Part shown: piece after piece, positions 3,584-27,109 of the stretch
Layout: each line of letters starts with the position of its first letter
Position numbering within the stretch: the stretch's first letter is position 1
NCBI GenBank assembly: GCA_017519865.1
Contig: JAFWRQ010000022.1
Location: forward strand, 1-41,655
From: Bacteroidales bacterium
Lineage (GTDB): Bacteria; Bacteroidota; Bacteroidia; Bacteroidales; UBA932
DNA length: 41,655 nucleotides
Reading direction: 5' to 3'
The notes under the pieces: generated by a model
The model's input: the letters and a program-made list of their open reading frames with translations, nothing else
Told to the model about the DNA's origin: nothing
Databases searched by the model: none
Translations under genes and position numbers: made by a program

Positions 3584-4489
3584 TTACTCCCAGTCCGTAA
3601 CCTCGGTGAAGGAACCGAAGTCTTCGGATACTTTATATACGGAGGAGTAGTTGTAAGTCTGGTTCGGATTGACCGTTCCGTCGTTCGTATACTCGGCATC
3701 GTGGTGGACAAGGACTATCACGGATGCAGGCGGATCAGGGTAGCCGGCATAGCCGATGGCTCCCCAGGCACCCCAGTCAATGGTTTCCTCATCCCATGCC
3801 GGAACGACAGCGCAGTGCGCCGCCTGGGCGGCGATGCGGACGTAATGAGGCTGCTTGTACGTGAACTCGGACTTATTACCGCCGGTGGTCTTGATCCTGA
3901 GCTCGACGGCTCCGGCCTCGACGAATGCAGTAGTGGCCGTAACATCCTCTGCGTTGTTGTGGTTTTTGCCCACAAACCGATCAGGGGCAATCATCAGGAA
4001 CACCTTGATACCGTTGGTCTTGGCGGGATCACCGTGGGAGACATTGCACTTGGCAACTATCTCCTTGGTCGCGGAATCGTAGGAGAAGCTCACGTTGGAA
4101 ATCCGGGCATAAGGAGTCACCTTGAAATCCTTGGTGTTATCGCCCTTCTTGATTGAGAACTGCTCCGTCAGAGGATAGAAGTTGTTGGACTGAGTCGTCT
4201 GGATACGGTAATCACCGGAAAAGACGAGCTTGTTGGTATAAGATCCGTTGGTGCGGGCATACCAGGTAAGGGCGCTGGGAGCGAAATTACCCTTGGGAGG
4301 CTCGAAGTTCTCTTCGTAGACAGAGAAGCCATAGTTGTCCGGAACGCCGAACTGAATCGGGTCGTTGGTAGAGGCATCGAGGAATTTTCCTGTGATGGTG
4401 GCATCGTAGCCGTCCATGTTGTCAAAGACGAACCAGTCGCACGATGTGGCCATCAAAAGGAGGGGTATGAGATACAATATCTTTTTCAT
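3584..4489 (-). CDS. SusE-position surface lipoprotein (DUF3823-like)
   Basis: A lipoprotein of about 301 residues encoded directly after SusD. MKKILYLIPLLLMATSC carries a lipobox with C17, so it is probably exported to the outer membrane surface as a glycan-binding partner of SusCD. The start MDGYDATITGKFLDA and the Ig-like, Tyr/Trp-containing body are like DUF3823 proteins found after SusD in xylan-type PULs; that assignment is from memory. An alternative start at 4501 (MLSNMKK) would add four residues; I prefer 4489 because it gives a standard signal sequence. The gap to the SusD stop is 18 bases (6 with the longer start), so the genes are co-transcribed. A terminator follows. Confidence 0.8.
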   Translation of the reverse strand: MKKILYLIPLLLMATSCDWFVFDNMDGYDATITGKFLDASTNDPIQFGVPDNYGFSVYEENFEPPKGNFAPSALTWYARTNGSYTNKLVFSGDYRIQTTQSNNFYPLTEQFSIKKGDNTKDFKVTPYARISNVSFSYDSATKEIVAKCNVSHGDPAKTNGIKVFLMIAPDRFVGKNHNNAEDVTATTAFVEAGAVELRIKTTGGNKSEFTYKQPHYVRIAAQAAHCAVVPAWDEETIDWGAWGAIGYAGYPDPPASVIVLVHHDAEYTNDGTVNPNQTYNYSSVYKVSEDFGSFTEVTDWE

Positions 4490-4507
4490 ATTTGATAGCA
4501 TATTAGA

Positions 4508-6451: not shown

Positions 6452-6463
6452 ATTGCTTGCAGA

Positions 6464-9400
6464 TTAGAAGTTGATGTTCACACCGAAACTGTACGTCTTG
6501 ATAAGCGGGGAACCACCACCGCCAATCCAACCGTAGCCACGCTCAGGGTCATACGGCTTGAGCAGCTTGTCACAGAAGGTCAGCAGGTTGGTGCCGCTAA
6601 CATAGACGCGTGCCTGGTTGATTCCAATCTTACTGGTAAGGTTACGCGGGAACGTGTAGCCGATCTCAAGGCTCTTGAGACGGAGGTAAGTGGAATTGAT
6701 CCAGTTGTAAGGCTGGGTGTATGCATAGGTACCGTTACCGGAAGTCACATAACCGCCGTCGGTCTTGCGAAGTGCGGGATAGTATCCCTCGACCCATACA
6801 CTGTTGGGGTCGAAAGGATCGGTATATCCGTCGGCAAGATGGTAATGGCTCTCGTAATTCTTATAGAACGTACCATAGTAGCCATAGCCGTATGTACCGT
6901 GCAGGGAGATGAAGCGATGGTCCATCGTAGCGCCGCTGAAGGTGGCGCTGAGGTCGAGGTTCTTGTAGTTCATGAAGAGCATGAGACCGAACTGGAGCGG
7001 AGGGTTGTTACCGGCAGGTCCGCCGAAGTTGAGACCGTCACCTGCTCCACTACCGAAGGAGTAATACATATCCGAACTGTTGATGACACCATTGCCGTCA
7101 CGGTCCTCGATCTTGTACATACCGGGAAGGAGGTTGTTGGGAGAGGTACCGGTATAGATGTTATAGTCGTTGATTTCTCCCCAGTTGTGGAACTGTACGC
7201 CGCCGTCGGCCCAATGGTAGGTCTGGCCGCCGAGAGCGTTGGACCAGCGGCCCTCCATATAACTCTTGTAGAACGCCTCGTGGGAGCCGTAATTGGCGGT
7301 CTCGTTGGACGCGGTATAGGTATTACGGTTACGTGCGTAGGTCGCGGTGGCAGTCAAACGGTAGTTGAAATCACCGATACGGTGACGATGCGAGATCTGG
7401 AGATCGATACCTACGTTCTCGGCAGAGTTGAGGTTGTACTGAGGCAGGGAGATACCATAGAAGTCAGGCACCTTGCTGGAGTAGATACTGCTCGCCGCGA
7501 TACCGCTGCGGGTACGACGGAACACATCGACGGAACCGCCGAAGAGGCCGCGCGCCACCTCGAAGTCCACACCGAAGTTCATCATGCGGACACGCTGCCA
7601 GGAGATGATGGTTTCAGCTGCAGAAGAGTTGGCGTAGCCCATGGTCGGGGCGCCGGCAGTGAAAACATAGTTGCTGGTGGTCGTATATCCGAGCTGCCAG
7701 GCATAAGGAGAACCCTGTTGCTGGCCGGTCAGACCGTCGGACCAACGGATCTTGAAGTTGTTGATCCAGGGGAAAATGCGCTTGAAGAACGGCTCATCGG
7801 AGATACGCCAACCCAAGGAATATGCAGGGAAGAAACCCCAGCGGTGACCGGGAGCATATACATACGTCGCGTCATAACGGCCGGTCAACTCTACGAGGTA
7901 CTTGCCCTGATAGTCGTACGCGATACGACCAAGGTATCCGGCAGTAGCCGAATCGCTGCGGGTACCGCTGGTGGTACCGGTCGAAGCTACACCCTGGTTG
8001 ATGGTATCGTGCGTGAAGAAGTCGTTGTACTTGACATTGCCGCCGATGGACTTGTTCCAGCCGATACGGGTCTCGGCCGCAAGCATGGTGGACAGATTGT
8101 GGTTTTCCCAACGCTTGTTATAGTTGGCCTGAAGCTTTCCATAGAGAGACATGGTCTTGTTCCAGTTCTCAGCATACTGGCTGGTACCCTTGGCAGCTTC
8201 GATGACCTCGTCCGTCCAGTAATCATAGACCGACATACTCTTGTCGAGAACGTTTGTCTGGCGCTGGGAGACATTGAACGATGCGAAGGCATCGAGCGTG
8301 AGACCCTTCAGGAACGGAGCGTCATACTTGAAATCGAGGCTGTTGTTGTAATTGTGCATAGCGGTTTTGCTGTAACCCATGGTGTCTATGTCGAGGATGG
8401 CGACAGGGTTCCAGTGCTCACCGGAAGCATAAGTGTAGTGGCTGGGGTTACCATAGACGGTCGGAGCCATGATACGCTCGGAATATGCAACATAATAGAA
8501 GAAGTTGGACTCCGAGTTGTTCGTGGACATACCGAGACGCCTGTTGGTGTCGAATGATGACTGGTAAACGACGGTGAGGTTGTCGTTGACCTTGGTTGTG
8601 ACATTGCCCTGGAAATTGAAGGCGTTGTAACCGAGGCCATCGCCTTTGTAGATGCCGTTGTCCTGATTGAAACGCGTACTCAGATAATACTGGGTCTGCT
8701 GGGTACCGCCGCTGATGGACAGTGAATGGTTCTGCTGGAAGGAATGATCCCTCAGGACCTCGTCCATCCACTTGGTGTCGACATATCCGGGATCGCCGTT
8801 CCTGTAATGCTGGATCAGCTCGTCAGAATAGCGGGCAGGATAGTGGATGTTGGCATACATCTCATTCTGGTAAAGGAGGTTGTCCACGATATCGACTTCC
8901 TGGGGGATGGCGGTAGGGAAACCTATTGAGAGGGTGTTGGTATACCTGATGGTAGGCTTTCCGACACTACCCTTCTTCGTAGTCACGAGGATGACACCGT
9001 TCTGGGAGCCGATACCATAAAGGGACGCGGAAGCGTCCTTCAGAACGGAGATGCTTTCGATGTCTTCAGGATTGAGCTGCGAGAGAATGGAGGTCGAAGA
9101 ATTGGAGAAATTGTTGCCGCCGAACTGGCGGCCACGGCGCTGCGCGGTACGGACGACACCGTCGATAACTACGATAGGCTCGCCGAAACCGCGGATGTTC
9201 AAATCGGTATCGAAGTCACCGGCGCTACCGCAGACCTGACGGATGAGCAGTCCGGGAACCTTACCCTGGAGGGAAGCCGTGACGTCGACCTGTTTGGTAG
9301 CGTTGAGTTCCTCATCGCGGATGTTTGCGATGGCCGCGGTCAGGGACGCTTTCTTCTGCGTACCATAACCGACGACGACCGTTTCATCCAACTGGGTAGC

Positions 9401-9709
9401 CTCTTCGTTGAGCGTGATATTCAACGTAGAGGAGGTAGCCTTAACCGTCAGGGTCTCATATCCGATGGCCTGGATTGTGAGATCCGCCCCCGCGGGGACG
9501 GTGAGGGTGAAATGACCATCAACGTCCGTAGCGGTTCCGTTCGTCGTGCCGGTCTGAATGACACCAGCACCGATGACCGGCTGCTTCTCAGCATCGAGGA
9601 TGGTTCCTCTGACCGTGATCGTGTTTTGTGCAAGCAGCGCCGAAGCACCCAGGACAAGTCCTGCAAGTACCGAGAAGAGCCGCTTGAGCAAAGAGTTGGT
9701 CTTCATCAT
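6464..9709 (-). CDS. SusC/RagA-family TonB-dependent outer-membrane transporter
   Basis: A 1081-residue outer-membrane transporter for oligosaccharides, energised by TonB. In order: signal peptide ending ALLAQ, a carboxypeptidase-regulatory-like domain (about 30-105, VRGTILDAEKQPVIGAGV), the SusC signature DETVVVGYGTQKK (about 113-125), a plug domain (about 130-245, with NIRGFGEPIVVIDGV), then a long beta barrel ending in GVNINF with a terminal Phe. Two ATG codons (9709, 9706) are possible starts. Only 54 bases separate it from the upstream esterase and no strong promoter is seen between them, so it may be read from the esterase promoter. It forms a pair with the SusD protein at 4508-6451. 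Confidence 0.97.
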   Translation of the reverse strand: MMKTNSLLKRLFSVLAGLVLGASALLAQNTITVRGTILDAEKQPVIGAGVIQTGTTNGTATDVDGHFTLTVPAGADLTIQAIGYETLTVKATSSTLNITLNEEATQLDETVVVGYGTQKKASLTAAIANIRDEELNATKQVDVTASLQGKVPGLLIRQVCGSAGDFDTDLNIRGFGEPIVVIDGVVRTAQRRGRQFGGNNFSNSSTSILSQLNPEDIESISVLKDASASLYGIGSQNGVILVTTKKGSVGKPTIRYTNTLSIGFPTAIPQEVDIVDNLLYQNEMYANIHYPARYSDELIQHYRNGDPGYVDTKWMDEVLRDHSFQQNHSLSISGGTQQTQYYLSTRFNQDNGIYKGDGLGYNAFNFQGNVTTKVNDNLTVVYQSSFDTNRRLGMSTNNSESNFFYYVAYSERIMAPTVYGNPSHYTYASGEHWNPVAILDIDTMGYSKTAMHNYNNSLDFKYDAPFLKGLTLDAFASFNVSQRQTNVLDKSMSVYDYWTDEVIEAAKGTSQYAENWNKTMSLYGKLQANYNKRWENHNLSTMLAAETRIGWNKSIGGNVKYNDFFTHDTINQGVASTGTTSGTRSDSATAGYLGRIAYDYQGKYLVELTGRYDATYVYAPGHRWGFFPAYSLGWRISDEPFFKRIFPWINNFKIRWSDGLTGQQQGSPYAWQLGYTTTSNYVFTAGAPTMGYANSSAAETIISWQRVRMMNFGVDFEVARGLFGGSVDVFRRTRSGIAASSIYSSKVPDFYGISLPQYNLNSAENVGIDLQISHRHRIGDFNYRLTATATYARNRNTYTASNETANYGSHEAFYKSYMEGRWSNALGGQTYHWADGGVQFHNWGEINDYNIYTGTSPNNLLPGMYKIEDRDGNGVINSSDMYYSFGSGAGDGLNFGGPAGNNPPLQFGLMLFMNYKNLDLSATFSGATMDHRFISLHGTYGYGYYGTFYKNYESHYHLADGYTDPFDPNSVWVEGYYPALRKTDGGYVTSGNGTYAYTQPYNWINSTYLRLKSLEIGYTFPRNLTSKIGINQARVYVSGTNLLTFCDKLLKPYDPERGYGWIGGGGSPLIKTYSFGVNINF

Positions 9710-13981: not shown

Positions 13982-14073
13982 TAATTTTGTACAAATTTAA
14001 TCCATTCCGCATCTTTGCGGCACGATACAATCGTCATTGAAATATGCGGAATGTTAAAAATCGTTTATATTTG
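13982..14073. promoter_or_regulatory. Divergent promoter/operator region between carboxylesterase and HTCS gene
   Basis: Minus strand: TAAATTTG at 13999-13992 is a -7 box for the carboxylesterase. Plus strand: TAATTTTG (13982-13989) and TATATTTG (14066-14073) are possible -7 boxes for the HTCS. A perfect 9-bp inverted repeat, CATTCCGCA (14003-14011) and TGCGGAATG (14045-14053), spans the region, with a third TGCGG at 14016-14020. TGCGGAATGTT differs by one base from TGCCGAATGTT in the 12468-12494 site, so both may be bound by the same regulator. If the 14066 box is used, the HTCS message would be almost leaderless. Confidence 0.55.
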
Positions 14074-14081
14074 TGTCATAT

Positions 14082-17000
14082 ATGAAAAAACTCCTTGCAT
14101 TCTTCCTCTGGGCGCTGCCCTGTGTACTGATGGCACAGGGATACGCATCCACTGAACCCAGCCAGGCAGAACTGTCCAGCCCCAACGTCACCAGCATGGC
14201 AGAAGACGCATATGGGAACATCTGGATAGGGACCATACGCGGGCTCAACCGCTACAATGGAAGTTCCTATGTCGCTTTCTATCAAGAGGAAAACGGTCTT
14301 CCAGACGATACCATCAGTGCCGTTTGCAGGGATTCCGACGGAAATCTCTGGATAGGAACAGGATCCGGCATCAGCCTTATCCGAAGCGGCAGGGTAGATC
14401 CGGATTTCCGTATTCGCGCCAACCGTGTCAACCAGGTCCAGGACTGGGACGACGGACATCTGCTGTACTCTACACGCGAGGGGCTTTTCACTGCCGACAA
14501 ATCCACCGGAGCATCGCATCCGGTCTATCTGGACAAGCGCTTGTTGTACAACACATTCATCGTAACTCCGGGGCGGAGGATCTGGATCCGCAACACATCC
14601 TCCTCCGTCGTTACGGTCCTGGACCAGGGATTCCGGGTGCTCCGCGAGTTCAGTATCAGCGATCGCGAAATAGCCGGCATACACGCCCTTCCGGAAGCGG
14701 GTGTGTGCATATATACGGATAAAGGCATACTGTACTACGACGAAGACGGCAAGCCTTCTCAGACACCCGTGGAACTCTCTGCCGGGACAAACGGCAAGAG
14801 TGTTGTGATGATGTGTTCCCATGGCTCCGACACGTACATAGGCATCAAGGGAGAAGGCCTTTTCAGGCTGACAGCCGACGGCCTGCAGCGCCAGTGGGAT
14901 GAGGAATCCCTCACCGGGGTCGATGGCTGCACGGCCCTTCTCACCGACGACAACCTCTGGATCAGCATGGACGGGCGCGAGCCGGTCAACTTCTACCGCC
15001 ACAAGGAGGAGTTCACACTAGGGCGTCCCTCGGAGTACCAGTCCGATGCACTCAACATGTTCTACTTGCTTGGAGATGGCTATATCCTGGTTATCACCAA
15101 CAAAGCCGTCTTCCGCCAGCACATCGGCTCCGGCTCATATAGGGCTATAGGCGGAGAAGGGCTGGACGGGGACGGCAAACTGGGCATTACGCTCCGCGAC
15201 CGTCGCGGAAAGCTTTGGATACAATACAATTACGACGAACTACGGCGTTATGCCATGGAACCTGACCGTCTTGTACTCGAAGCCTCCTGGCCTATCGAAC
15301 CGACGGTATGCATCTGGGACGATGCCGCCGGGAATGTATATCTGCTACAGAGCGAGGGGATCTCCCGCTTCACACCCGAAGGGCACCGCGAGGAGATCCA
15401 GGTCGGGCAGCATCCGGAGTTCTGGTTCTGCGGGCAGTTCGACTCCGGAAAGGTTTATTTCCTAGCCGACGACGCTATATGGTTCCTTGACGACGACTTC
15501 AATTTCCAACCCCTGGACGCCGCGATTCCCGAGCCAAGCTGTATATGGGAGGACGAACACGGAGACTGGTGGATCGGTACCAGACACTCCGGAGTATGGC
15601 GACATTCGCCGCAAAGCGGGAAATCCTTTCAGATAGACCTGGGAGGAAAGGACGTGGACCGCAGCATCAATTCCATTTCAGGAGATGGAAAGGGCAGCAT
15701 CTGGGCTTCTTCAAGATTCGACTTCATCCATATTTCCGATGAAGGGAATAGTGTCCTGAACCTCAAGAATCCCGCACAGGAGTCGGTCAGGAACAATACC
15801 AACAGCCTCAAGGTGACCGAGAACGGTACAGCCGTCTTCGGCACCCGTTCCAGATTCTTCTTCTTCCCGGCAGACTTCAGTTCGGAAGGGGCAGAAATCC
15901 CGCTTTTCCTCGACGGTCTGGTAATTAACGGATCTACAGTGATGCGCGAAGTTCCGAACCCGCTCGTCCTGGGACACGAATCAAGGCAACTGGTATTCTA
16001 TTTCTCCGGCAAAAACTTCAATCCCACGCTTCAACCGGCGTACCAATATAAACTCGAAGGTTTCGACAGGGACTGGATTCCAGCCTCACAACTCCTCCAG
16101 GCCAGTTATTCAGGGCTTCACAGCGGCCGTTATACCTTCCGCGTCAGGGTCCTGCAGCCCGACGGCGGATGGAGCGGAGAAGAGCTCCTCCAGCAAGTCC
16201 GCATCAAGCCCTCACCCTGGCTGGCATGGCCCTGCCTGCTGCTTTACCTGCTGCTTGCACTGTCCGCCTTCATGCTCGCGACCAGGCTCATATTCAACTC
16301 CAGGATTAACAGCGAGAAACTCGAACTCGCTGAGCAGGAAAGGGCGCTTTCTGAGCAGATAAGCCAGGAACGCACGACCTTCTTCACCAACGTTTCGCAC
16401 GAGTTCCGCACTCCCCTCTCGATGATATACGGTCCTGTCAGGGAACTCGCCCGCTCGGAGTCGCTGGGCGACAAGGAGCGTGAACTGGTCGGCATAATCG
16501 ACCGCAATGCAGAGAGGATGGTTCGCCTTACCGACCAGCTCCTGCATTTCAGCCGCTCCCAGGACACTCTCGACAGTCTTTCCATCATGCGTACGGACCT
16601 TTCCGTCCTTCTGCGCAAGATGCTCGACAACTTTGAGTACATGTTCAGCCAGAAGGACTTGCGTGTCACGACGGACATACCTGCCGGAATCATCGCCTAC
16701 TGCGATAGGGAGAAGGTGGAAAGGATAGTGTTCAACCTCCTCAGCAACGCGGTAAAGTATACTCCCGCCCACGGAGAGATCGTCATCAGCGCGAAGGCTG
16801 ATGACGGGAAGGCCCTCATAACGGTGGCCGATACCGGAATAGGCATCTCGCCCGACAAGATGACGCGGATCTTCGACCGCTATGAGCGTTTGGGTGAAAA
16901 TGTCGGCGGGGCGCTTCCTTCCGGCTTCGGAATAGGCCTCAACTATGCCCAGCATCTGGCCCATATACATAAAGGGGAGATCACCGTCAAGGCCAACGAG

Positions 17001-17882
17001 CCTATGGGATCCGTCTTCACTTTCACCTTCCCCTGCCTCAAGGAGGATTTCGAGGAGTCCAATATCTGGCAGGAGACAGAGGAGGTGGCGAACGAGGCTC
17101 CTGCCCCGGCTCAGGGCTCGTCGTCGGAAGACATCCACATCCTGGTGGTCGAGGACAACGACGACATGCGCGGTTACATCCGCGGCTTCCTCCGCGAAAA
17201 ATACAACGTGACTACGGCCGATGACGGCGAGGAAGCGTGGAAATTCATCCGCATAAGCGCTCCAGACCTCATCATCAGCGACGTGATGATGCCGTACAAG
17301 GACGGTTATACGCTCTGCAAGGAGATCAAGAACGATCCGGAGTTCTGCCACATCCCCATCATCCTCCTGACCGCCAAGGCGGACATGGAGAACCAGATAC
17401 ACGGACTCGACCTGGGAGCGGACGGATATGTCGGGAAGCCCTTTGACCCGACATACCTCACGGCCCTGGTCCAGAACCTGATTGCCGGCAGGCAGCGCCT
17501 CCAGGGCCTTCTGGCCGACCGTACCTCCTCGACGGAAACGCCCGTCGAAGACTCTTCCCTGCTTTCCTCGCAGGACAAGGCTTTCATGGACAAATGCTAC
17601 AGCATCATCGACGCCCACCTCGACGACGAATCATTCGGAGTCATCGGGCTTTCGATGGAAATGGGCATGAGCCGCACCAGCATATTCTCGAAGGTGAAGG
17701 CCCTGACGGGCCAGTCGCCCCAGGCATTCCTCACGAACTACCGGCTCAACAAAGCGATGGAACTCCTGCAGACCAGGGACTTCAACATCAGCGAAGTAGC
17801 ATACAAGGTCGGATTCGCCACCCTCACCGGTTTCTCGCGTTCTTTCAAAAACAAATTCGGAATTCCTCCCAGTGCGGTATAG
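14082..17882 (+). CDS. Hybrid two-component system regulator (HTCS), complete
   Basis: A single-chain sensor, kinase and transcription factor of 1266 residues. In order: signal peptide MKKLLAFFLWALPCVLMAQ, a periplasmic two-component-regulator beta-propeller (about 25-600, repeats such as YGNIWIGTIRGLNRYNG), a Y_Y_Y domain (about 640-705), one membrane helix (about 713-738), a DHp domain with H773 in NVSHEFRTP, a HATPase domain (NLLSNAVKYTP near 885, DTGIGISPDKM, GFGIGLN), a receiver (about 1025-1140, D1067, K1119) and a C-terminal AraC-type helix-turn-helix. All catalytic parts look intact. It probably senses oligosaccharide in the periplasm and activates the divergent PUL. A GTG at 14073 could extend it by three residues; 14082 gives a normal signal peptide. 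Confidence 0.96.
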   Translation: MKKLLAFFLWALPCVLMAQGYASTEPSQAELSSPNVTSMAEDAYGNIWIGTIRGLNRYNGSSYVAFYQEENGLPDDTISAVCRDSDGNLWIGTGSGISLIRSGRVDPDFRIRANRVNQVQDWDDGHLLYSTREGLFTADKSTGASHPVYLDKRLLYNTFIVTPGRRIWIRNTSSSVVTVLDQGFRVLREFSISDREIAGIHALPEAGVCIYTDKGILYYDEDGKPSQTPVELSAGTNGKSVVMMCSHGSDTYIGIKGEGLFRLTADGLQRQWDEESLTGVDGCTALLTDDNLWISMDGREPVNFYRHKEEFTLGRPSEYQSDALNMFYLLGDGYILVITNKAVFRQHIGSGSYRAIGGEGLDGDGKLGITLRDRRGKLWIQYNYDELRRYAMEPDRLVLEASWPIEPTVCIWDDAAGNVYLLQSEGISRFTPEGHREEIQVGQHPEFWFCGQFDSGKVYFLADDAIWFLDDDFNFQPLDAAIPEPSCIWEDEHGDWWIGTRHSGVWRHSPQSGKSFQIDLGGKDVDRSINSISGDGKGSIWASSRFDFIHISDEGNSVLNLKNPAQESVRNNTNSLKVTENGTAVFGTRSRFFFFPADFSSEGAEIPLFLDGLVINGSTVMREVPNPLVLGHESRQLVFYFSGKNFNPTLQPAYQYKLEGFDRDWIPASQLLQASYSGLHSGRYTFRVRVLQPDGGWSGEELLQQVRIKPSPWLAWPCLLLYLLLALSAFMLATRLIFNSRINSEKLELAEQERALSEQISQERTTFFTNVSHEFRTPLSMIYGPVRELARSESLGDKERELVGIIDRNAERMVRLTDQLLHFSRSQDTLDSLSIMRTDLSVLLRKMLDNFEYMFSQKDLRVTTDIPAGIIAYCDREKVERIVFNLLSNAVKYTPAHGEIVISAKADDGKALITVADTGIGISPDKMTRIFDRYERLGENVGGALPSGFGIGLNYAQHLAHIHKGEITVKANEPMGSVFTFTFPCLKEDFEESNIWQETEEVANEAPAPAQGSSSEDIHILVVEDNDDMRGYIRGFLREKYNVTTADDGEEAWKFIRISAPDLIISDVMMPYKDGYTLCKEIKNDPEFCHIPIILLTAKADMENQIHGLDLGADGYVGKPFDPTYLTALVQNLIAGRQRLQGLLADRTSSTETPVEDSSLLSSQDKAFMDKCYSIIDAHLDDESFGVIGLSMEMGMSRTSIFSKVKALTGQSPQAFLTNYRLNKAMELLQTRDFNISEVAYKVGFATLTGFSRSFKNKFGIPPSAV

Positions 17883-17948: not shown

Positions 17949-19262
17949 TTAGATGTACATGTTGACTATCGTCTCGTAGAGCTCCTGCTTGCCGCTGGTG
18001 GCCTTGGGCTCTCCCTTGGTCTTGGCATACTCGACGACCTGCTCGAGGGTGAGCTTGCCTTCCTCGAACTCCTTGCCCTTGCCGGAATCGTAGGAAGCGT
18101 AGCGCTCCTTGAGCATCTTGGGCAGTTCGGACTTCTCGAGGACGTCGGCTGCCACGAGAAGGGCGCGGGCCATGATGTCCATGCCGCTGACGTGTGCGAT
18201 GATGATATCATCGAGGTCAGTGGAGTTGCGGCGGGTCTTGGCGTCGAAGTTGGTGCCGCCCACGAGACCGCCGTTGCGGAGGATGACCATCATTGCCTGG
18301 GTGAGCTCATAAAGGTCGATAGGGAACTGGTCGGTGTCCCAGCCGTTCTGATAGTCGCCGCGGTTGGCGTCGATGGAGCCGAGGAGGCCGGCGTCGGAGG
18401 CGCACTGGAGTTCGTGCTCGAAGGTGTGACCGGCCAGCGTGGCGTGATTGACCTCGATGTTGATCTTGAAATCCTTGTCGAGACCGTGGGCGCGGAGGAA
18501 GCCGATGACGGTCTCCGTGTCGGCGTCATACTGGTGCTTGGTCGGCTCCATGGGCTTGGGCTCGATGAGGAACGTGCCCTTGAAGCCCTTGCTGCGCGCA
18601 TAGTCGCGGGCCATGCCGAGCATGGTGGCCATATGCTCCTTCTCACGCTTCATGTCGGTGTTGAGGAGGCTCATGTAGCCCTCGCGGCCGCCCCAGAAGA
18701 CGTAGCACTCGCCTCCGAGTTCGATGGTGGCGTCCATAGCGTTCTTGATCTGGACCATGGCGCGGGCTGCGACGTCGAAGTCGGGATTGGTGGAGGCGCC
18801 GTTCATATAGCGTTTGTGGCCGAAGACATTGGCGGTGCCCCAGAGGAGCTTGATGCCGGTCTGGGCCTGCTTTTCCTTGAGGTATGCGACGATCTCCTTG
18901 AGATTGGCCTCATACTCCTCGATGGTGGCAGCCTCGTCCACGAGGTCCACATCATGGAAGCAATAATAACCTATGCCCAGCTTCTGCATGATCTCGAAGC
19001 CTGCGTCCACTTTCTGCTTGGCCTTGCAGATGGGGCACTCGGCATCGTTCCAGGGGAACGACTTGGTGGGTCCGCCGAACTGGTCGCCGCCCTCTGCGCA
19101 GAGAGTGTGCCACCATGCCATGGCGAACTTGAGCCAGTCCTTCATCGGCTTTCCGCAAACGATCTGCTCAGGATTGTAATAATGGAATGCAAGGGGGTTC
19201 TTGGAGTCCTTGCCTTCGAATTTGATTTTTCCCACTTCCGGGAAGTACTCTTTGGTTGCCAT
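17949..19262 (-). CDS. xylA: Xylose isomerase
   Basis: Converts D-xylose to D-xylulose in the cytoplasm. The 437-residue length is normal for class II xylose isomerases. Motifs: FHDVDLVDE (catalytic His region), [15 protein letters not shown], the signature [10 protein letters not shown], a metal-binding Glu in [28 protein letters not shown] with a ligand His, and [19 protein letters not shown]. It follows xylB by 8 bases in the same transcript and ends at a GC-rich terminator. It processes xylose released by the GH43 enzyme and other xylosidases. Confidence 0.98.
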
Positions 19263-19270
19263 AATTAGTA

Positions 19271-20758
19271 TTAGTATTTGAGTGAATTGCTGAGTTCCTG
19301 TTTCCAGTGGCCATAAGCCTCCTCGAGAGGCTTCTTCCAGGCCTGTTCAGGCTCGATGATATCAAGCCTTTCGAGGGTTGCGAACGCTTCTTCAGTGGTT
19401 TTGTAGATGCCGGCTCCGAGAGCGGCTCCGCGGGCGGCACCGAGAGAACCGTCAGTGTCGAAGAGCTCGATGCGCGCATCGCAGAGCGTGGAGAGCGTCG
19501 AGCGGAATATGGGGCTAAGGAACATGTTGGCCTTGCCGGCGCGGATGACGTCGGGCTTGAGGCCCATGTCCTTCATGATGTCGATGCCGTAGCGGAACGA
19601 GAATGCGATGCCCTCCTGTACCGCACGGAGTATGTGGGACTTGCCGTGGCGGACAAGGTCTATGCCGACCATACGTGCGCCGGTGGTGCGGTTGGCGAGG
19701 ACGCGCTCGGCTCCGTTGCCGAAAGGCAGGACGAGCAGTCCGTCGGAGCCGACGGGGGCAGTGGCGGCGAGGTCGTTCATCTGGGGATAGGAGAGTTCGG
19801 GGGCTATGTTGCGGTGTGCCCATGAATTCATGATGCCCGTGCCGTTGATGCAGAGGAGTACGCCGAGGCGAGGCTCGTCGACCGTGGCGGAGGTGACGTG
19901 AAGGAATGTGTTGACACGCGACTGCGGGTCGGCCTTGGGCACGTCGGTCACGCCGTAGACGACTCCGCTTGTGCCACCGGTAGCAGCGATCTCACCCGGC
20001 TTGAGCACGTCGAGCGAGAAAGCGTTGTTGGGCTGGTCGCCGGCACGATACGAAACAGGAGTGCCGGCAGGGATGCCGAGCTCGGCCTGGATGGCTTCAG
20101 TGGTGAGGGACTGGATGCCGATGGCGGGGACCACGGGGCAGAACTTGTCGGACTCGATGCCGAAATAATCGGCCACGAAGTGGGCCCTGCGCCTGTCGAC
20201 GAAGTCCCAGAGGATGCCCTCGGACATGCCGGTGGCGGTGGTTGTGGCCTCGCCGGTGAGGATGTATGCGATGTAGTCTCCCGGGAGCATGAAGCGCCAG
20301 ATGCGGGAGTAGATTTCCGGTTCGTTACGCTTGACCCAGGCAAGCTTGGAGGCGGTAAAATTGCCGGGAGAATTGAGCAGGTGGGTCATGCAGCGCTCAT
20401 AGCCGATGGCCTGAAGGGCCTCCGCGCCAGTGGAAACGGCCCTGGAGTCACACCAGATGATGGAGTCGCGGACGGGCTTGCCGTCACTGTCCAGCGCGAC
20501 GAGGCCGTGCATCTGATAGGAAATACCGATCGATGCGACCTGCTTCATATCATACCCTGCAGCGGCCATCTCGCGGATGCCGTCGCACAGGTACTTCCAC
20601 CACGATGCGGGAGACTGTTCCGCCCATCCCTTGCGGACGGCTTTGATGGGGGCTTCTGTCTTGGGGTTGGTGGATGAACAGGCACATTTACCGCTCTCTA
20701 TATCGAGCAATGCAACTTTTACGGATGAGGATCCGACGTCGATTCCTAAAGAATACAT
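19271..20758 (-). CDS. xylB: Xylulokinase
   Basis: Phosphorylates D-xylulose to xylulose-5-phosphate. A 495-residue FGGY-family kinase with the N-terminal phosphate loop [16 protein letters not shown], the substrate region [10 protein letters not shown] and SIIWCDSRA, the second ATPase-core motif [10 protein letters not shown], and [15 protein letters not shown]. It is the first gene of a xylB-xylA operon, 8 bases ahead of xylA. The xylBA arrangement is common in Bacteroides, where a transporter often follows; here the symporter is on the other strand at 24682-26097. Confidence 0.96.
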
Positions 20759-20798
20759 GATTGGATACGCTAGAAAAACGTGTTATTAATTCATTGCA

Positions 20799-20835
20799 TA
20801 AAGGTAGTCATTTTCTTCGAAATAACCATTCGAAG
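20799..20835 (-). promoter_or_regulatory. xylBA promoter region with palindromic operator
   Basis: Minus-strand TACCTTTA (20806-20799) is a near match to the TAnnTTTG -7 box, about 40 bases before the xylB start. Immediately upstream, at 20815-20835, is a perfect inverted repeat CTTCGAA-N7-TTCGAAG covering the -33 region, a position that suits a repressor. No regulator gene for it is seen beside xylBA. Confidence 0.5.
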
Positions 20836-20952
20836 CAAAAGGGATTGTTATAAAATTGAACCAATCTTTTTAGAATACGCAATTTAATCCTTGCGGGACA
20901 TATCCAGCAATCAAGGGATGTTTCAAAATTCACATGAAATGTCAAAATCAAT

Positions 20953-20982
20953 CTTGACACTCGGGGAAAAATATTAAATTTG
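20953..20982 (+). promoter_or_regulatory. Promoter of the second HTCS gene
   Basis: TAAATTTG (20975-20982) fits the -7 consensus and CTTG (20953-20956) stands 18 bases upstream in place of the -33 TTTG. The transcript would start near 20989, about 25 bases before the ATG at 21014. Confidence 0.6.
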
Positions 20983-21013
20983 CAAACACAGGAACCGAAA
21001 AAGAGCCGCAAAA

Positions 21014-24000
21014 ATGAAACATTCTTTCACTTTTCCTTCTGCAGTTATCGCTTTATTGTCGATTACTACTGTCCTGCAGGCTCAGACCGCAAGGCTATAC
21101 GACTCGGGCAGCGGACTGCCCAGCACGCAGATAAACGACCTTTTCCAGGGTAGCAACGGCATGCTCTGGGTTGCGACGAACAACGGGCTGTACCGTTTCG
21201 ACGGTCTTAATTTCATCGGTTTCCATCACGACAAGGAGAAGCCGAACTCCATCGGGAGCGACCTGGTCCTTAAAGTCATCGAAGACAGCCGTGGAGTCAC
21301 CTGGGTGGGCACCTCGACAGGACTTCAGACATTCGACCCAGACACGAACTCCTTTTCCGACTTCACCCTGGATGACAGCGGACGAACCCACTTCATCTAC
21401 GGGCTCGTTGAAATACCCTTGCGGCACGGGCATAACGGGATTCTTGTTTCGGCCTCGGATTTCGGTCTCTATATGCTTGACACTGACACCCATGCCATGG
21501 ATGACGTAAGGAGGAGCAAGTTCATCGCCCCCGAGGGGACCGACCATCTGAAGACGGTTTTTGTCGACTCAAAGTCCAGGATCTGGGCTTCATCGGAGAT
21601 GGGAGGAATGATAGTATACGACCAGGACGGGAATATCATCCTCGAGGAGATGTGGGACGGCATTCCCACGGCATTGCGCACGCAGGTCATAGCCACGGCA
21701 TTTACGGAAGACGAGGCATCCGAAAGGATAATCATCGGTACATCCAACTTCGGAATCCTTGTTTATGAAGGTAGTGCAAGACGCCTGACAATTCCGGCGG
21801 ACCCGGCGGCGAGGAACTGCAAGGTAATGTCACTGCTGGAGAGTGCAGACTTCACACGCCAGGGAAGCAGGACCATAATCATCGGCACGGAAAACCAGGG
21901 ACTCAGACAGTTCTCACTGGAGGACCTCACATTGTCCCCCCTTTCCATCCCAAACGTTCCTTTCCAAACCGGAAACTGGAAGGTCCATGGGCTTCTCGAG
22001 GACAACCAGGGCAATCTTTGGGTTTCGGCATACCAGACAGGGCTTATGATTGTTCCCCAGTCGATGTTCGGCTTCCGCACCGACAGTTTCAGTTATGGGG
22101 ACGGCAACAGGGGGGACAGTTCCAGCCTGACCTCCGCGTATCGTGACCACAACGGAGGAAGGACATGGGTGGGCAGTGACGGCAGCGGTATATTCTGCAT
22201 CGACAGGGACGGACGGACGGTCAACTACAACAGTACCAACTCCGGCCTCCCAGACGACTCGGTTATGAGTCTGGCCGTGGACAAGCGCGGTACGCTATGG
22301 ATCGCCACCTTCCTCGACGGTCTGGTGACATATCGCGGGAATGCCGGATTCAGGCCATTCAAGGAAGCGCTCAAAGTCGGGACTGAACGGACCTTCTGCC
22401 TGAATTACGACCCAGAGGAGGACCTGCTTTATGTCGGGACCCACGGCAACGGCATAATCATAGTGGACCCGGCGACCGAAAAGGTCGTCCGGACCATCAC
22501 CGAAGGCATCAACCACTGGATCAATTCACTAACCTTCGACAGTGCAGGGACGCTCTGGATCGCGACCTTTGACGGACACTGGTGCTACAATCCCGAGACA
22601 GGGCAGTTGTTCCGGGCGGATATCAAGGACACGGGACTGATGAGCGCACGCACTTATTCCATCGCCGAAAGCAAGGACGGTACGATGTGGATCGGTACCG
22701 GAGAAGGGCTCATCCGCCTGGACCGAAACACTGGTAAGACAACAGTATACACTGAAAAAGACGGGCTGTCCAGCAACGTCATCAGCGGGATACTCGAAGG
22801 AGACGACGGAAGCATTTGGGTCTCAACCACATACGGACTTACCCGCATCAATCCGCAGACAAATCGTTTCTCACGCTATTACGAGTCTGACGGTCTTCAG
22901 GGCAACGAATTCGGCATCGGCGCAATATTCAAAAGCAGACGAGGCCAACTGTTTTTCGGCGGCAACAAGGGCCTCACAGCATTCTACCCGCAGGTTGTGA
23001 ACCAAAAGCCGCACGACTTGCCACCGGTCATCTTCACCCGTCTCACCGTAGCCAGCAAGGAGGTCGAATACGACTCCGGAAGGGACGACAACATACTCGA
23101 CAAGCACATCACGGAAGCCGGCAGCATTGTACTCCCCTACTCCTCGAATTCCTTTACGCTCGACTTCTCCGTGCCTGAGTTCACCAACCCCGGACGAGTA
23201 CGCTACTCGTACATCCTGGACCGCTTCGACCAGGATTGGAACACCGAATCCTCCAGGAACCGCACCGCCACATACACCAATCTTCCCCACGGGCGCTATA
23301 CGTTTACCGTCAAGGCCTTCTTCGACGGAGACGAGGAGAACTCCTCCTCTCGCTCCATAAAGATACGTGTCCTTCCTCCATGGTGGTTGTCCCTGTGGGC
23401 TTTCCTATTCTATGCGGTACTGGCGGCGCTGACAGCCTTCCGGCTGATATCCCTGCGCAGGAAGAGCCTCGAGCACAGGCAGCAGCAGGAGGAATCAGCC
23501 CTCAAGGAGGCCAAGATCCAGATGTTCACGAACATCTCGCACGAGATACGCACTCCGCTGAACCTCGTGATGTCCCCCCTCCGCAAACTCATGGAGACGG
23601 AGTCCGAGCCGGACCGCAAGGAAAACTACGAGATGATGTACCGTAATGCTTCGATCATCCTGGGCAAGATGAACGACTTCGAAGAATCACGCCGCCTGGA
23701 GCTCGCCGCAGGCGGGACCGGAGCGGCCAGGGATGACTCCTATGTCCCGCCCGAGGATAATGACGACAAGGTCATCAAATCCAAGAAGAACATCATTCTC
23801 GTCGACGAGAATGCCGAGATGCGGCGCTATCTCAAGATGGAACTGCGGAAGTATTTCAACGTCGAAACCTGTGCGGACGCCGACGAAGCCTGGGCAAAGA
23901 TAATCAGTACGCTTCCCGATGCCGTCGTTACGGACATAATAACGGCAGGCAGCATGGACGGGACGGATCTGTGCGAGAAGGTCAGGCACAACCCCAGTAC

Positions 24001-24583
24001 GAGTCTCATCCCCGTACTCATCCTCACCTCACAGTGGGATGACGACACCATCCGGCGCTGCACCGAGAGCGGTGCCGACCGTTACCTGGTAAAACCGGTT
24101 CCGATCGACCTGCTCCGATCGACCGTCCAGCAGGTCATCTCCACACGCGAAGCCATCCGCAACAAGTACACCAACGACCTTTCATACGACTACAGCGGAA
24201 TCACGATCCCTTCCACCGAAGACCAGTTCCTTCCCCGCACCGTCGGGATAATCAAGGCGAACATCGGCAATCCCGTTTTCGGAGTCGAAGAGTTGAGCCG
24301 AGAAATAGGCATGAGCCGGGTACACTTGAACAGGAAACTCAAGGACATCATCAGCATGTCGCCCGGAACCCTCATCAAGTCCATCAGGCTGAAGCAGGCC
24401 GCGTACCTGCTTGTGAACAACAAAGTCAATATTTCCGAGGTCGCCTTCAAGGTGGGTTTTTCAACGCATTCCTACTTCTCGAGTACCTTCAAGGACTATT
24501 TCGGACTCTCGCCTAAAGAGTTCGTCGTGAAGTATTCGGATCCCTCCAGGAAAGGGGAACTGGACAGGCTTCTGGACATTTGA
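21014..24583 (+). CDS. HTCS-like regulator lacking the HATPase domain
   Basis: A 1189-residue one-chain regulator. In order: signal peptide (ending VLQAQ), periplasmic propeller repeats (about 25-680), a Y_Y_Y domain (about 700-785), one membrane helix (about 790-812), a DHp helix with H843 in NISHEIRTPLNLVM and a degenerate second helix (about 865-890), a linker rich in Asp, Glu and Gly, a receiver (about 925-1040; acidic pocket DE, D974, K in YLVKPV) and an AraC-type helix-turn-helix (about 1090-1180). Only some 35-40 residues lie between DHp and receiver, and the N, G1 and G2 boxes of the ATP-binding domain are absent, with no frameshift. It cannot autophosphorylate in the usual way. It precedes the symporter and GH43 genes and diverges from xylBA, so it probably controls xylo-oligosaccharide use. 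Confidence 0.92.
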   Translation: MKHSFTFPSAVIALLSITTVLQAQTARLYDSGSGLPSTQINDLFQGSNGMLWVATNNGLYRFDGLNFIGFHHDKEKPNSIGSDLVLKVIEDSRGVTWVGTSTGLQTFDPDTNSFSDFTLDDSGRTHFIYGLVEIPLRHGHNGILVSASDFGLYMLDTDTHAMDDVRRSKFIAPEGTDHLKTVFVDSKSRIWASSEMGGMIVYDQDGNIILEEMWDGIPTALRTQVIATAFTEDEASERIIIGTSNFGILVYEGSARRLTIPADPAARNCKVMSLLESADFTRQGSRTIIIGTENQGLRQFSLEDLTLSPLSIPNVPFQTGNWKVHGLLEDNQGNLWVSAYQTGLMIVPQSMFGFRTDSFSYGDGNRGDSSSLTSAYRDHNGGRTWVGSDGSGIFCIDRDGRTVNYNSTNSGLPDDSVMSLAVDKRGTLWIATFLDGLVTYRGNAGFRPFKEALKVGTERTFCLNYDPEEDLLYVGTHGNGIIIVDPATEKVVRTITEGINHWINSLTFDSAGTLWIATFDGHWCYNPETGQLFRADIKDTGLMSARTYSIAESKDGTMWIGTGEGLIRLDRNTGKTTVYTEKDGLSSNVISGILEGDDGSIWVSTTYGLTRINPQTNRFSRYYESDGLQGNEFGIGAIFKSRRGQLFFGGNKGLTAFYPQVVNQKPHDLPPVIFTRLTVASKEVEYDSGRDDNILDKHITEAGSIVLPYSSNSFTLDFSVPEFTNPGRVRYSYILDRFDQDWNTESSRNRTATYTNLPHGRYTFTVKAFFDGDEENSSSRSIKIRVLPPWWLSLWAFLFYAVLAALTAFRLISLRRKSLEHRQQQEESALKEAKIQMFTNISHEIRTPLNLVMSPLRKLMETESEPDRKENYEMMYRNASIILGKMNDFEESRRLELAAGGTGAARDDSYVPPEDNDDKVIKSKKNIILVDENAEMRRYLKMELRKYFNVETCADADEAWAKIISTLPDAVVTDIITAGSMDGTDLCEKVRHNPSTSLIPVLILTSQWDDDTIRRCTESGADRYLVKPVPIDLLRSTVQQVISTREAIRNKYTNDLSYDYSGITIPSTEDQFLPRTVGIIKANIGNPVFGVEELSREIGMSRVHLNRKLKDIISMSPGTLIKSIRLKQAAYLLVNNKVNISEVAFKVGFSTHSYFSSTFKDYFGLSPKEFVVKYSDPSRKGELDRLLDI

Positions 24584-24618
24584 GCCATTTTTCAAAGGAT
24601 TTGCTACAATTGTTGAAG

Positions 24619-24646
24619 CGCCATTGGCGTCTATTTCGTACTTTTG
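24619..24646 (+). promoter_or_regulatory. Promoter of the symporter-GH43 unit
   Basis: TACTTTTG (24639-24646) fits the -7 consensus, about 35 bases before the ATG at 24682. A short palindrome CGCCATTGGCG (24619-24629) lies just upstream where the -33 box would be and may be a regulator site. No clean TTTG is present there. Confidence 0.5.
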
Positions 24647-24681
24647 TACACTTAGAAGACTGTAACCAATAACCTTTCTAT

Positions 24682-26097
24682 ATGGACGCTAACAAGACGG
24701 AAGCGAAAGGCTTCTACAAACTCAGTTGGATGCAGAGGATAGGATTCGGTTCGGGCGACATGGCCCAGAACCTGATTTACCAGACCATCAGCATCTGGCT
24801 GCTCTTCTACTACACCAACGTATTCGGACTCAAACCGGGAGCTGCGGCGACGATGTTCCTAATCGTCCGCCTCGTGGACGTCCTCTGGGACCCCGTGGTG
24901 GGCACGATAGTCGACAAGGGCAACCCCAAATGGGGCAAATACCGTTCATGGCTGATCCTCGGCGGCATTCCTCTCGTCGGTCTGGCCATCCTATGCTTCT
25001 GGAACGGCTTCAGCGGCTCGCTCCTCTACGCATACATCACTTATGTCGGCATGTCGATGTGCTACACCCTCGTCAACGTCCCTTACGGAGCCCTCAATGC
25101 CTCGCTAACCAGGGACACTGACGAGATCACCATCCTGACCTCCACCCGCATGTTCATGGCCAATCTCGGCGCCCTCTGCGTCAAATCGCTACCGCTCATC
25201 ATCGCACTCTTCGCCCCGAAGGTGGACGGCGTCGCCGTCTATAACACTCCTGAGGCATCCCGCGCCTGGTTCATCACCATGACCATTTTCGCCCTTGCCG
25301 GCCTGTTGCTGCTCTTCTTCTGCTTTACCCAGACAAAGGAAAAGGTCGTCATGGACGCCAAGGAGTCCGCCAACGTCAAGGTCAGCGACCTGTGGATGGA
25401 GTTTGTCCGCAACAAACCCCTGCGCATAGTGGCCTTCTTCTTCATCACGGCATTCGCCATGATGTCGGTGGGCAACGCAGCCGACGCCTATTTCATGACA
25501 TACAACGTTAAGGCTACGCCGCTGCTGACCACCCTGTTCATGTGGCTCGGCACCATCCCGGCCTTCATCTTCCTGCCCCTTGTTCCCGCCATCAAGCGCA
25601 AGATCGGCAAGAAGGGCATGTTCTATCTCTTCCTCGGAGTGGCCATCCTCGGCATGGCGCTGATGTATACCTTCGTATCGATCCCGGCCACCAAGACCAA
25701 CTTCGTGCTGCTCTGCATCGCCCAGTTCGTCAAGTCTGCCGGTATCATCACCGCCACAGGCTACATGTGGGCCCTCGTCCCTGAGGTCATTGCCTACGGC
25801 GAATACACCACCGGCAAGCGCATCTCCGGTATCGTCAACGCCCTCACCGGCATCTTCTTCAAGGCCGGAATGGCCCTCGGCGGAGTGGTTCCCGGACTCG
25901 TGCTCGCCATCGTAGGCTTCAACGCCGAGGCCAGCACCCAGACCCCGCTCGCCGAGCAAGGCATCCTCTGGCTGGTTTGCGTGATCCCGGCCCTCCTCCT
26001 TCTCCTCGCCATTTGGATCATCAGCAAGTATGAACTTTCCGATGAGCGCATGGACGAGATCAATACCGCCATCGAAGCGAAGCACCTGGCAGAATAA
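24682..26097 (+). CDS. GPH-family sugar:cation symporter (xyloside/xylo-oligosaccharide type)
   Basis: An inner-membrane carrier of 471 residues and about 12 membrane helices, of the glycoside-pentoside-hexuronide family. It shows the N-terminal GFGSGDMAQNLIYQ, VRLVDVLWDPVVGTIVDKGNPKWGKYRSWLI (the conserved D-x-x-W-D-P and G-K-Y/R-P-W-like region near 75-95) and TRDTDEITILTSTRMF. It probably couples Na+ or H+ to uptake of xylosides, arabinosides or free xylose from the periplasm. It has its own promoter and the GH43 gene follows 19 bases after its stop, a pairing that suits import followed by cytoplasmic cleavage. Confidence 0.93.
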   Translation: MDANKTEAKGFYKLSWMQRIGFGSGDMAQNLIYQTISIWLLFYYTNVFGLKPGAAATMFLIVRLVDVLWDPVVGTIVDKGNPKWGKYRSWLILGGIPLVGLAILCFWNGFSGSLLYAYITYVGMSMCYTLVNVPYGALNASLTRDTDEITILTSTRMFMANLGALCVKSLPLIIALFAPKVDGVAVYNTPEASRAWFITMTIFALAGLLLLFFCFTQTKEKVVMDAKESANVKVSDLWMEFVRNKPLRIVAFFFITAFAMMSVGNAADAYFMTYNVKATPLLTTLFMWLGTIPAFIFLPLVPAIKRKIGKKGMFYLFLGVAILGMALMYTFVSIPATKTNFVLLCIAQFVKSAGIITATGYMWALVPEVIAYGEYTTGKRISGIVNALTGIFFKAGMALGGVVPGLVLAIVGFNAEASTQTPLAEQGILWLVCVIPALLLLLAIWIISKYELSDERMDEINTAIEAKHLAE

Positions 26098-26116
26098 ATG
26101 TTTATCATTCAACAAT

Positions 26117-27109
26117 ATGGCAGAGAAAGTAAAAAAGAGATACCTCTTCCCCGAGGACTACATGGCCGATCCGTCCGTACACGTGTTCGACGGCAAGCTC
26201 TACATCTATCCTTCCCACGACTGGGAGTCCGCCGCACCTGACGATGATTTCGGCAGCGAATACGACATGAAGGACTACCACGTCCTCTCGCTCGAGGGCG
26301 ACGACCCCATGACATCCCCCATCAAGGACTGGGGCAACGTTCTGGACATCAAGGACATCCCCTGGGCCCGCCGCCAGCTCTGGGACTGCGAGGTGGCGAA
26401 GGGACGCGACGGCCGCTACTACATGTATTTCCCGGCAAAGGACAAGACCGACATCTTCCGCTGCGGCGTGGCGGTGTCGGACTCCCCCACCGGTCCTTTC
26501 AAGGCCATGCCTGACCCGGTCCGCGGCAGCTATTCCATCGATTATGCCATCCTCCACGACGATGACGACGAGTACTACATGTACTTCGGAGGCATCTGGG
26601 GCGGCCAGCTCCAGCGCTATGAGGACAACCTTGCCAAGGACTGCGGCACCTCCTATCCCGCCGACGACCAGCCGGCCATCCCGGCGCGGGTAGTCAGACT
26701 CTCCGAGGACATGCTCCAGTTCGCAGAGGATCCCAAGCCCGTCGTCCTGCTGGACGAAAACGGCAAGCCCATCACCGTGGGCGACAACGAACGCCGCTTC
26801 TTCGAGGCCAGCTGGATGCACAAGTACAAGGGAAAGTATTATTTCAGCTACAGCACCGGAGACACCCATAAGATCTGCTATGCGGTCGGAGACAGCCCTT
26901 ATGGTCCCTTCACCTACAAGGGAGTGATCCTTACGCCCGTATTCGGCTGGACTACACACCATTCCATTGTCGAATTCGGTGGTAAATGGTGGCTGTTCCA
27001 CCACGACAGCGGCCCTTCCAAGGGAATAAACCGCCTGCGCAGCCTCAAAGTCTGCGAACTGAGATACAACGAAGACGGTACCATCGTACCCATCGATGGC
27101 CTCGACTGA
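26117..27109 (+). CDS. Intracellular GH43 beta-xylosidase/alpha-L-arabinofuranosidase
   Basis: A 330-residue five-bladed propeller glycosidase of family GH43. The three catalytic carboxylates are visible: the base D18 in YMADPSVHVF, the pKa modulator D142 in YSIDYAI, and the acid E230 in FFEASW; the metal/active-site His lies in WTTHHSIVEF. There is no signal peptide, so it acts in the cytoplasm on short oligosaccharides brought in by the symporter just upstream. The start at 26117 (MAEKVKK) is chosen because earlier in-frame codons overlap the symporter gene. Members of this family split xylose or arabinose from short xylan fragments; which one cannot be decided here. A terminator follows. 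Confidence 0.92.
   Translation: MAEKVKKRYLFPEDYMADPSVHVFDGKLYIYPSHDWESAAPDDDFGSEYDMKDYHVLSLEGDDPMTSPIKDWGNVLDIKDIPWARRQLWDCEVAKGRDGRYYMYFPAKDKTDIFRCGVAVSDSPTGPFKAMPDPVRGSYSIDYAILHDDDDEYYMYFGGIWGGQLQRYEDNLAKDCGTSYPADDQPAIPARVVRLSEDMLQFAEDPKPVVLLDENGKPITVGDNERRFFEASWMHKYKGKYYFSYSTGDTHKICYAVGDSPYGPFTYKGVILTPVFGWTTHHSIVEFGGKWWLFHHDSGPSKGINRLRSLKVCELRYNEDGTIVPIDGLD

Follow-up and report, generated by a model that had tools for sequence, protein, structure and literature searches.

A Hybrid Two-Component System-Type Regulator Without a Kinase Domain Is Maintained at a Conserved Locus in Bacteroidales

We describe a regulator of the hybrid two-component system (HTCS) type that has the dimerization and histidine phosphotransfer (DHp) domain, the receiver and the DNA-binding output of such proteins and no catalytic and ATP-binding (CA) domain. 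Its gene lies at positions 21014-24583 of the forward strand of contig JAFWRQ010000022.1 (GenBank assembly GCA_017519865.1), from a Bacteroidales bacterium of the GTDB lineage UBA932; the whole stretch of 41,655 nucleotides that was analyzed is referred to here as the window. The protein is almost certainly a maintained kinase-less HTCS derivative, and the first-pass annotation of the window, which had reported an HTCS regulator without a kinase catalytic domain, was correct in that observation. As judged from frames, substitution rates and a tree, the comparison with its orthologs has shown that an ancestor of at least four genomes lost the CA domain in frame, and that purifying selection has since kept the protein at a conserved locus. 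The usual view of HTCSs is that of a self-contained phosphorelay, and a conserved, natural kinase-less version has now been found in at least seven lineages. This bears on the control of a fused receiver whose own kinase is absent, and annotating such proteins as histidine kinases would mislead; the sensor is probably controlled by means other than its own kinase.

Architecture of the regulator

The gene (CDS 21014-24583, plus strand; open reading frame (ORF) and Pfam) is an uninterrupted frame that encodes 1189 aa of an HTCS-type regulator. Behind a signal peptide recognized by inspection comes a periplasmic sensor built of Reg_prop repeats and a Y_Y_Y domain (residues ~25-790, 21086-23383; Pfam, with Y_Y_Y at 723-787), followed by a transmembrane segment assigned by inspection and from the AlphaFold model (residues ~791-813, 23384-23452). 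The DHp domain (residues 834-895, 23513-23698; Pfam, alignment and model) carries the motif HEIRT and matches HisKA at 834-893 with 29.3 bits against a cut-off of 26.9, its phospho-acceptor His being H843 (codon 23540-23542). The receiver (residues 926-1040, 23789-24133; Pfam Response_reg at 927-1038, alignment) has a pocket of D931/E932, D974 (codon 23933-23935), T1005 and K1027, and is followed by an AraC-type DNA-binding domain (Pfam HTH_18, residues 1094-1170, 24293-24523). Pfam and the alignment thus bear out the three domains, the two phosphorylatable residues and the open frame that had been read from the sequence at the outset.

At the place of the relatives' CA (HATPase_c) domain there is a short linker (residues 900-925, 23711-23788; Pfam null and model). 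Pfam gave no HATPase_c match in the protein at E<=0.001, and the 90 residues around the linker matched no Pfam family at E<=10. The AlphaFold model has helices at 794-862 and 866-899, then a stretch at 901-921 with a predicted local distance difference test (pLDDT) score <50, then a receiver fold and an AraC-type domain; it contains no CA fold, and one long helix runs from the membrane segment into DHp helix 1. The claim that a short linker replaces the HATPase domain therefore holds, with a correction to the proposed 35-40 residues: given a helix to 899, low pLDDT at 901-921 and then the receiver, its length is nearer 26-30 residues. With a predicted template modeling (pTM) score of 0.41 the arrangement of the domains in the model is too loosely fixed for the latch between receiver and DNA-binding domain (REC-DBD) to be judged from it. 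In the alignment, the S/C-H-I-P latch site (latch as in PMC11253607) reads S997-L-I-P1000 (24002-24013), with Leu for His, and its companions are E1069 and K1108, so that the S/CHIP-DK latch motif of most HTCSs is missing.

Of the features that define an HTCS, the protein has the propeller/Y_Y_Y sensor, HisKA with its His, a receiver with an acidic pocket and an AraC-type DNA-binding domain, and it lacks HATPase_c (CA) with its N, G1 and G2 boxes; as one defining feature is missing, it is classed as an HTCS variant. It also unites a DNA-binding domain and a transmembrane helix (the latter by inspection and model) in one chain, as transmembrane transcription regulators (TTRs) do. Its relatives in the PDB are 4a2l, 3v9f and 3ott for the sensor and 12aw for the REC-DBD part; in the best 50 VIA-align rows of the PDB structure search, the aligned range was the receiver.

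Orthologs and the loss of the CA domain

Our genome searches mostly scored the best 3-4 candidates per genome and drew on samples of larger groups, so kinase-less HTCSs may have been missed and no frequency is claimed. On this basis the kinase-less architecture is present in at least 4 of 400 genomes of the genus, its own included (one match across the whole cytoplasmic part). The other three proteins are 79% (G190), 67% (G169) and 66% (G081) identical to the window protein in the cytoplasmic part and 73, 65 and 65% identical over the full length, and all four frames are intact at 1186-1189 aa. Pairwise dN/dS among the four, with saturated pairs omitted, is 0.04-0.30 for the DHp domain, 0.03-0.16 for the receiver and 0.01-0.10 for the HTH domain; values for the linker are mostly above these (0.07-0.60). 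The findings that the first-pass annotation had named as fatal to its claim did not materialize: the linker gave no HATPase hit, the same architecture in four assemblies shows that no sequencing error is involved, and close orthologs without HATPase exist, namely at the same locus, beside xylBA and GH43 genes, in three other genomes of the genus. The absence of a CA domain and the four intact orthologs support the views that the protein cannot phosphorylate itself and that it is maintained and no product of a sequencing accident.

A fifth genome, G025, is a probable further carrier of the kinase-less ortholog, as an N-terminal fragment (L155:2-1216, from G025:C136) shares 99.7% identity with the G081 ortholog across 395 residues; the fragment ends at a contig end before the DHp domain, so that its CA status is out of sight. 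A REC-DBD fragment of the same genome (L154) was considered as part of this ortholog and rejected, since it reads NHIP and thus belongs to another HTCS.

More distant relatives, with 36-48% identity across the sensor, mostly have longer open frames (1337-1426 aa), and the close-kin relatives that were scanned by Pfam have the CA domain. A tree of 79 REC-DBD sequences unites the four kinase-less orthologs in one clade (100/100), the remaining members of the subfamily being kinase-bearing. Because kinase-bearing relatives surround the clade, we conclude that the CA domain was lost once, in the ancestor of the four.

In DHp helix 1, 14 of the 17 positions that are conserved in 32 kinase-bearing members of the subfamily are kept in all four proteins and none is lost in all four. 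Each of the proteins retains H843, E844 and T847, and also the receiver pocket, with T or S at 1005. In DHp helix 2, 7 of 15 conserved positions are lost in all four, and Leu replaces the latch His in each. The four also share an extra residue in the receiver loop behind D974, together with Thr for Met at D+3 (23933-23962 in the window).

The parental subfamily has a peculiarity of its own. Its G1-box Asp is Asn in 32/32 kinase-bearing members (rows within L020-L109), and 17 other HTCSs have Asp (14), Ser (2) or Asn (1); all 49 kinase-bearing HTCSs compared have the N-box Asn and the G2 glycines. The G1-box Asp has a role in adenine binding and, if so here, the kinase of the parental subfamily was unusual even before the window clade lost it.

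Other kinase-less HTCS lineages

At least six further kinase-less HTCS lineages were found in the order (L054, L055, L105, L106, L107 and L125, two of them from the genus), the order search covering 393 genomes and the class search 385 in partly overlapping samples; with the window clade this makes at least seven lineages and 10 proteins. Pfam placed HisKA over cut-off and no HATPase_c in five of the six proteins, and neither domain in L055. Each of the six is a single genome and several sit on long branches, so a count of seven independent CA losses is approximate: six losses are forced by supported branches in the 79-sequence tree, and a later tree has seven on the best quick tree and four forced. 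None of 19 short-frame loci chosen by eye lacked the CA domain. Two of the kinase-less proteins (L106:7170-9728 and L107:8022-10229) have a Peripla_BP_4 sensor in place of the propeller.

The phospho-acceptor His is kept in six of the seven kinase-less lineages and is Asn in one, Thr stands at H+4 in all seven (10/10 proteins), and the acid at H+1 is replaced in four (K, S, Q, K). Among kinase-bearing HTCSs, H+1 is acidic in 97/97 and the His is present in 96, a count that omits the own copy L124 and L049 (no motif); the latch and tree rows leave out frames that are duplicates, lie within another frame or lack a usable tail. The exception, L103 (L103:1387-5247), keeps its CA domain and has Asn for the phospho-acceptor His (NEMKTPL). 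Fisher's test on lineages gives p 8e-6 for H+1 loss against CA loss, on rows that are related. The pattern at H+1 and H+4 reads as a kinase function that has decayed beside a phosphatase face that was kept.

The kinase-less protein L055 (L055:7045-10389) has Asn for the DHp His, misses the usual acidic pair of the receiver and has Glu for the receiver Asp. It was considered as a conserved second type and rejected: a search at E<=1e-120 matched 8 of 200 genomes of the genus, mainly across the sensor and with open frames of 1287-1376 aa, G268 lying outside the sample.

Control of a receiver without its own kinase

Tentatively, we favor a reading that accommodates more of the evidence than its rivals, in which an outside source phosphorylates the receiver and the DHp domain, under control of the sensor, removes the phosphate. 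The window protein would be unable to load H843 from ATP itself, so that its receiver would have to be charged from outside, D974 presumably taking its phosphate from acetyl phosphate or by cross-talk. The sensor would act via the DHp bundle, with its complete HExxT motif, and turn the dephosphorylation of D974 on or off, and loss of the latch His would be expected to make the receiver easier for small donors to charge and to reduce the threshold at which DNA is bound. Likely targets would be the symporter-GH43 genes next to it, and perhaps xylAB. Matches to Acetate_kinase and PTA_PTB are present in 4/4 genomes.

Several published results are relevant here; the papers are cited, here and below, for individual passages, and what is said of them holds for those passages. 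In the HisKA proteins of Willett and Kirby (PMC3510030) the H+1 acid is needed only for the kinase and the T/N at H+4 only for the phosphatase. For HK853 lacking its CA domain, phosphatase activity has been reported at pH 8.0 and not at pH 5.0 (PMC7005713), and the same paper cites another whose title says as much for EnvZ. Substitutions in the latch of the BT4124 and BT4663 receivers led to quicker phosphorylation by small donors and to DNA binding without phosphate (Gao and co-workers, PMC11253607). We speculate that evolution may have parted the kinase and phosphatase roles of DHp in kinase-less HTCSs. It is conceivable, if doubtful, that these proteins are a recurrent Bacteroidales class with an inverted logic, in which the sensor would gate the removal of phosphate and so tie glycan sensing to the acetyl-phosphate (metabolic) state.

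A number of observations weigh against external charging with DHp-controlled dephosphorylation. E844, the H+1 acid, is kept in 4/4 window-clade proteins, and the decay pattern comes from the other lineages, each of them one genome; the Thr at H+4 belongs to an RTPL stretch that is conserved in general, so that its presence is by itself no proof of phosphatase use. A tree-corrected pair test of CA loss against H+1 loss had too few pairs to reach significance, the latter following in about 2 of the 4 pairs with support (p 0.5). The residue losses of L055 fit no phospho-chemistry and suggest a phosphate-free mode of action for at least one kinase-less HTCS. Some losses of the window clade recur in kinases: the kinase-bearing pair L109/L110 loses 9 of 19 helix-2 positions, so that helix-2 loss in the window clade is suggestive only, and although helix 2 differs from helix 1 in these losses (Fisher p 0.0019), its erosion was rejected on this control as a sign of CA loss. 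Of 70 kinase-bearing proteins, 64 have the latch His (two have Leu, four another residue), the variants among kinase-bearing relatives including SLLP in L109 and L110, NYLP in L108, DSIP in L095 and DSIS in L096; the His is kept in 5/5 other kinase-less proteins of that count, and L125, found later, reads CHIP. A coupling of CA loss with latch loss, suggested by the first alignment, was rejected on the wider count and L125. As the latch is altered in kinase-bearing kin and intact in other kinase-less proteins, its loss is a trait of the window clade and some relatives and not a consequence of kinase loss.

Alternatively, though this is somewhat unlikely, the regulator might be independent of phosphorylation, with a DHp domain that dimerizes and relays the conformation of the sensor and a broken latch that permits DNA binding without phosphate, in the manner of transmembrane one-component regulators, among them SusR. 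The Leu at the latch in all four proteins would fit this, as would L055, a kinase-less HTCS that has lost both the His and the receiver Asp. The AG and AD latch substitutions bound DNA without phosphate, and independence of phosphorylation has been suggested for BT4236, which has Q for His (PMC11253607); RocA was functional with its DHp His mutated (PMC7028121). However, all four proteins retain H843, E844, T847 and the receiver pocket despite up to ~35-39% divergence, the latch change is also found in kinase-bearing relatives, and phosphorylation still had a strong effect on BT4663 latch variants (PMC11253607). Signaling by conformation only, one of two mechanisms offered in the first-pass annotation, agrees with the lost REC-DBD latch and disagrees with the intact H843/T847 and pocket.

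The other mechanism offered there was phosphorylation in trans, a full-length HTCS charging H843 in a mixed dimer, or D974 directly, with the window protein as a slave output. We consider it rather unlikely. H843 and D974 are kept in 4/4, and kinases that could serve are at hand: its own assembly (75% complete) has 9 HisKA domains and, in a six-frame HATPase_c search, 12 HATPase_c domains, eight HTCS-type chains having both. But the closest full-length paralog (G000:C28) was found in the own genome only, with no close counterpart in the three other genomes, two of which are 85 and 96% complete with <=7% contamination, so that absence is not proof. The neighboring HTCS, which has the only HATPase_c domain on the window contig, is present in the window and in L031, but in G081 GH3 and Peptidase_S9 genes lie upstream of xylA instead. 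Conserved helix-2 residues are also lost in all four, although the kinase-bearing pair L109/L110 is alike in this. The remaining four HATPases of the assembly belong to GyrB, a further GyrB-like subunit, HSP90 and a kinase of 299 aa next to an NtrC-type regulator; a separate CA protein serving the DHp domain was rejected, there being no orphan CA domain in the assembled ~75% of the genome. No conserved dedicated phosphorylation partner was found in these searches, though other HTCSs could cross-talk.

Quite improbable is a phosphotransfer hub, in which DHp would shuttle phosphate between receivers as a histidine phosphotransfer (HPt)-like domain, for which Spo0B and ChpT are examples. Helix 1 with H843 is kept and a receiver and DHp in the same chain could serve both ends, but no candidate upstream or downstream receiver was identified and the kinase-specific acid at H+1, which an HPt domain would not need, is retained. 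A decaying gene or an assembly artefact is barely credible, for although the own genome assembly is incomplete, the architecture recurs across four assemblies with intact frames and low dN/dS.

Comparison with known systems

The closest likeness is to Bacteroides HTCSs such as BT4663 and BT4124, which combine a propeller and Y_Y_Y sensor, a membrane helix, HisKA, a receiver and an AraC-type output in one chain; in contrast to these, the window protein has no CA/HATPase_c domain, a replaced latch His and no phosphate from a kinase domain of its own. The pseudokinase DivL acts on a partner kinase. So does RocA, which has a degenerate CA domain, whereas the window protein has none and carries its output in the same chain (PMC7028121). 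With RocA and DivL (PMC9430884) it shares a DHp domain that was kept while kinase function is gone or doubted. SusR (PMC3878776) and other TTRs (PMC10269533) resemble it in having a sensor, a membrane helix and a DNA-binding domain with no kinase in the chain, but the window protein keeps DHp with H843 and the receiver pocket, and we name SusR as a functional analog only. CA-deleted HK853 (and EnvZ, by title; PMC7005713) likewise has a DHp domain with HExxT and no CA domain; those are laboratory constructs, whereas the architecture described here is natural, fused and conserved. Histidine kinase-like proteins of Archaeoglobus also have a kinase architecture without HATPase, but the census passage on them (PMC1183210) mentions no receiver and AraC output. 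The HTCSs identified in PMC3878776, in the passages concerned, all have a kinase domain, and a full-text search for kinase-less HTCSs or histidine kinases, with subscription papers mostly outside its reach, returned no passage describing a kinase-less HTCS.

Genomic context

Synteny around the regulator is conserved in 4/4 loci and comprises xylA, a xylB-like kinase, the regulator, a GPH symporter, a GH43 gene and an M16 peptidase, the contig boundary of G169 falling inside xylA. This supports the setting between xylBA and a symporter-GH43 unit that had been noted at the outset, and points to xylose or xylo-oligosaccharides, the ligand itself being putative. Kinase-bearing relatives lie near the same symporter and GH43 genes in five of the seven loci L058-L064, which does not hold for the own paralog L056.

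In the window, xylA (xylose isomerase, family match) occupies 17949-19262 on the minus strand. It is followed by a divergent FGGY kinase gene (19271-20758, minus strand; Pfam, NCBIfam), probably the xylulokinase gene xylB as its best NCBIfam match, which is under the model cut-off. The neighboring complete HTCS (14073-17882, plus strand) has HisKA, HATPase_c (878-987) and Response_reg by Pfam and is thus the kinase-bearing neighbor it had been taken for. Downstream of the regulator, the intergenic stretch 24584-24681 (plus strand, by inspection) contains a putative promoter similar to TAnnTTTG, which we take to be the promoter consensus; such a sequence was seen by eye before the symporter gene in 4/4 orthologous loci. 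The GPH-family pentoside/hexuronide symporter (24682-26097, plus strand; family match) precedes the GH43 glycoside hydrolase (26030-27109, plus strand; Pfam). As listed, the GH43 ORF overlaps the symporter ORF at 26030-26097; its homology to two of three orthologous loci begins at residue 30, which probably puts the true GH43 start beyond the stop codon of the symporter gene.

Between xylB and the regulator, G081 has SusC-type and SusD-type genes confirmed by Pfam (L053:3238-8253), and G169 has the same spacing with a SusC match there. These genes are absent from the corresponding gap of ~250 bp in the window (20759-21013) and in L031, where, on the evidence of these loci, the transporter pair is lost or moved while the regulator stayed. 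An Rfam scan of the window gave no match. A second susC/susD pair with a DUF3823 gene lies at 3584-9709 on the minus strand, past esterase and peptidase genes and near the complete HTCS.

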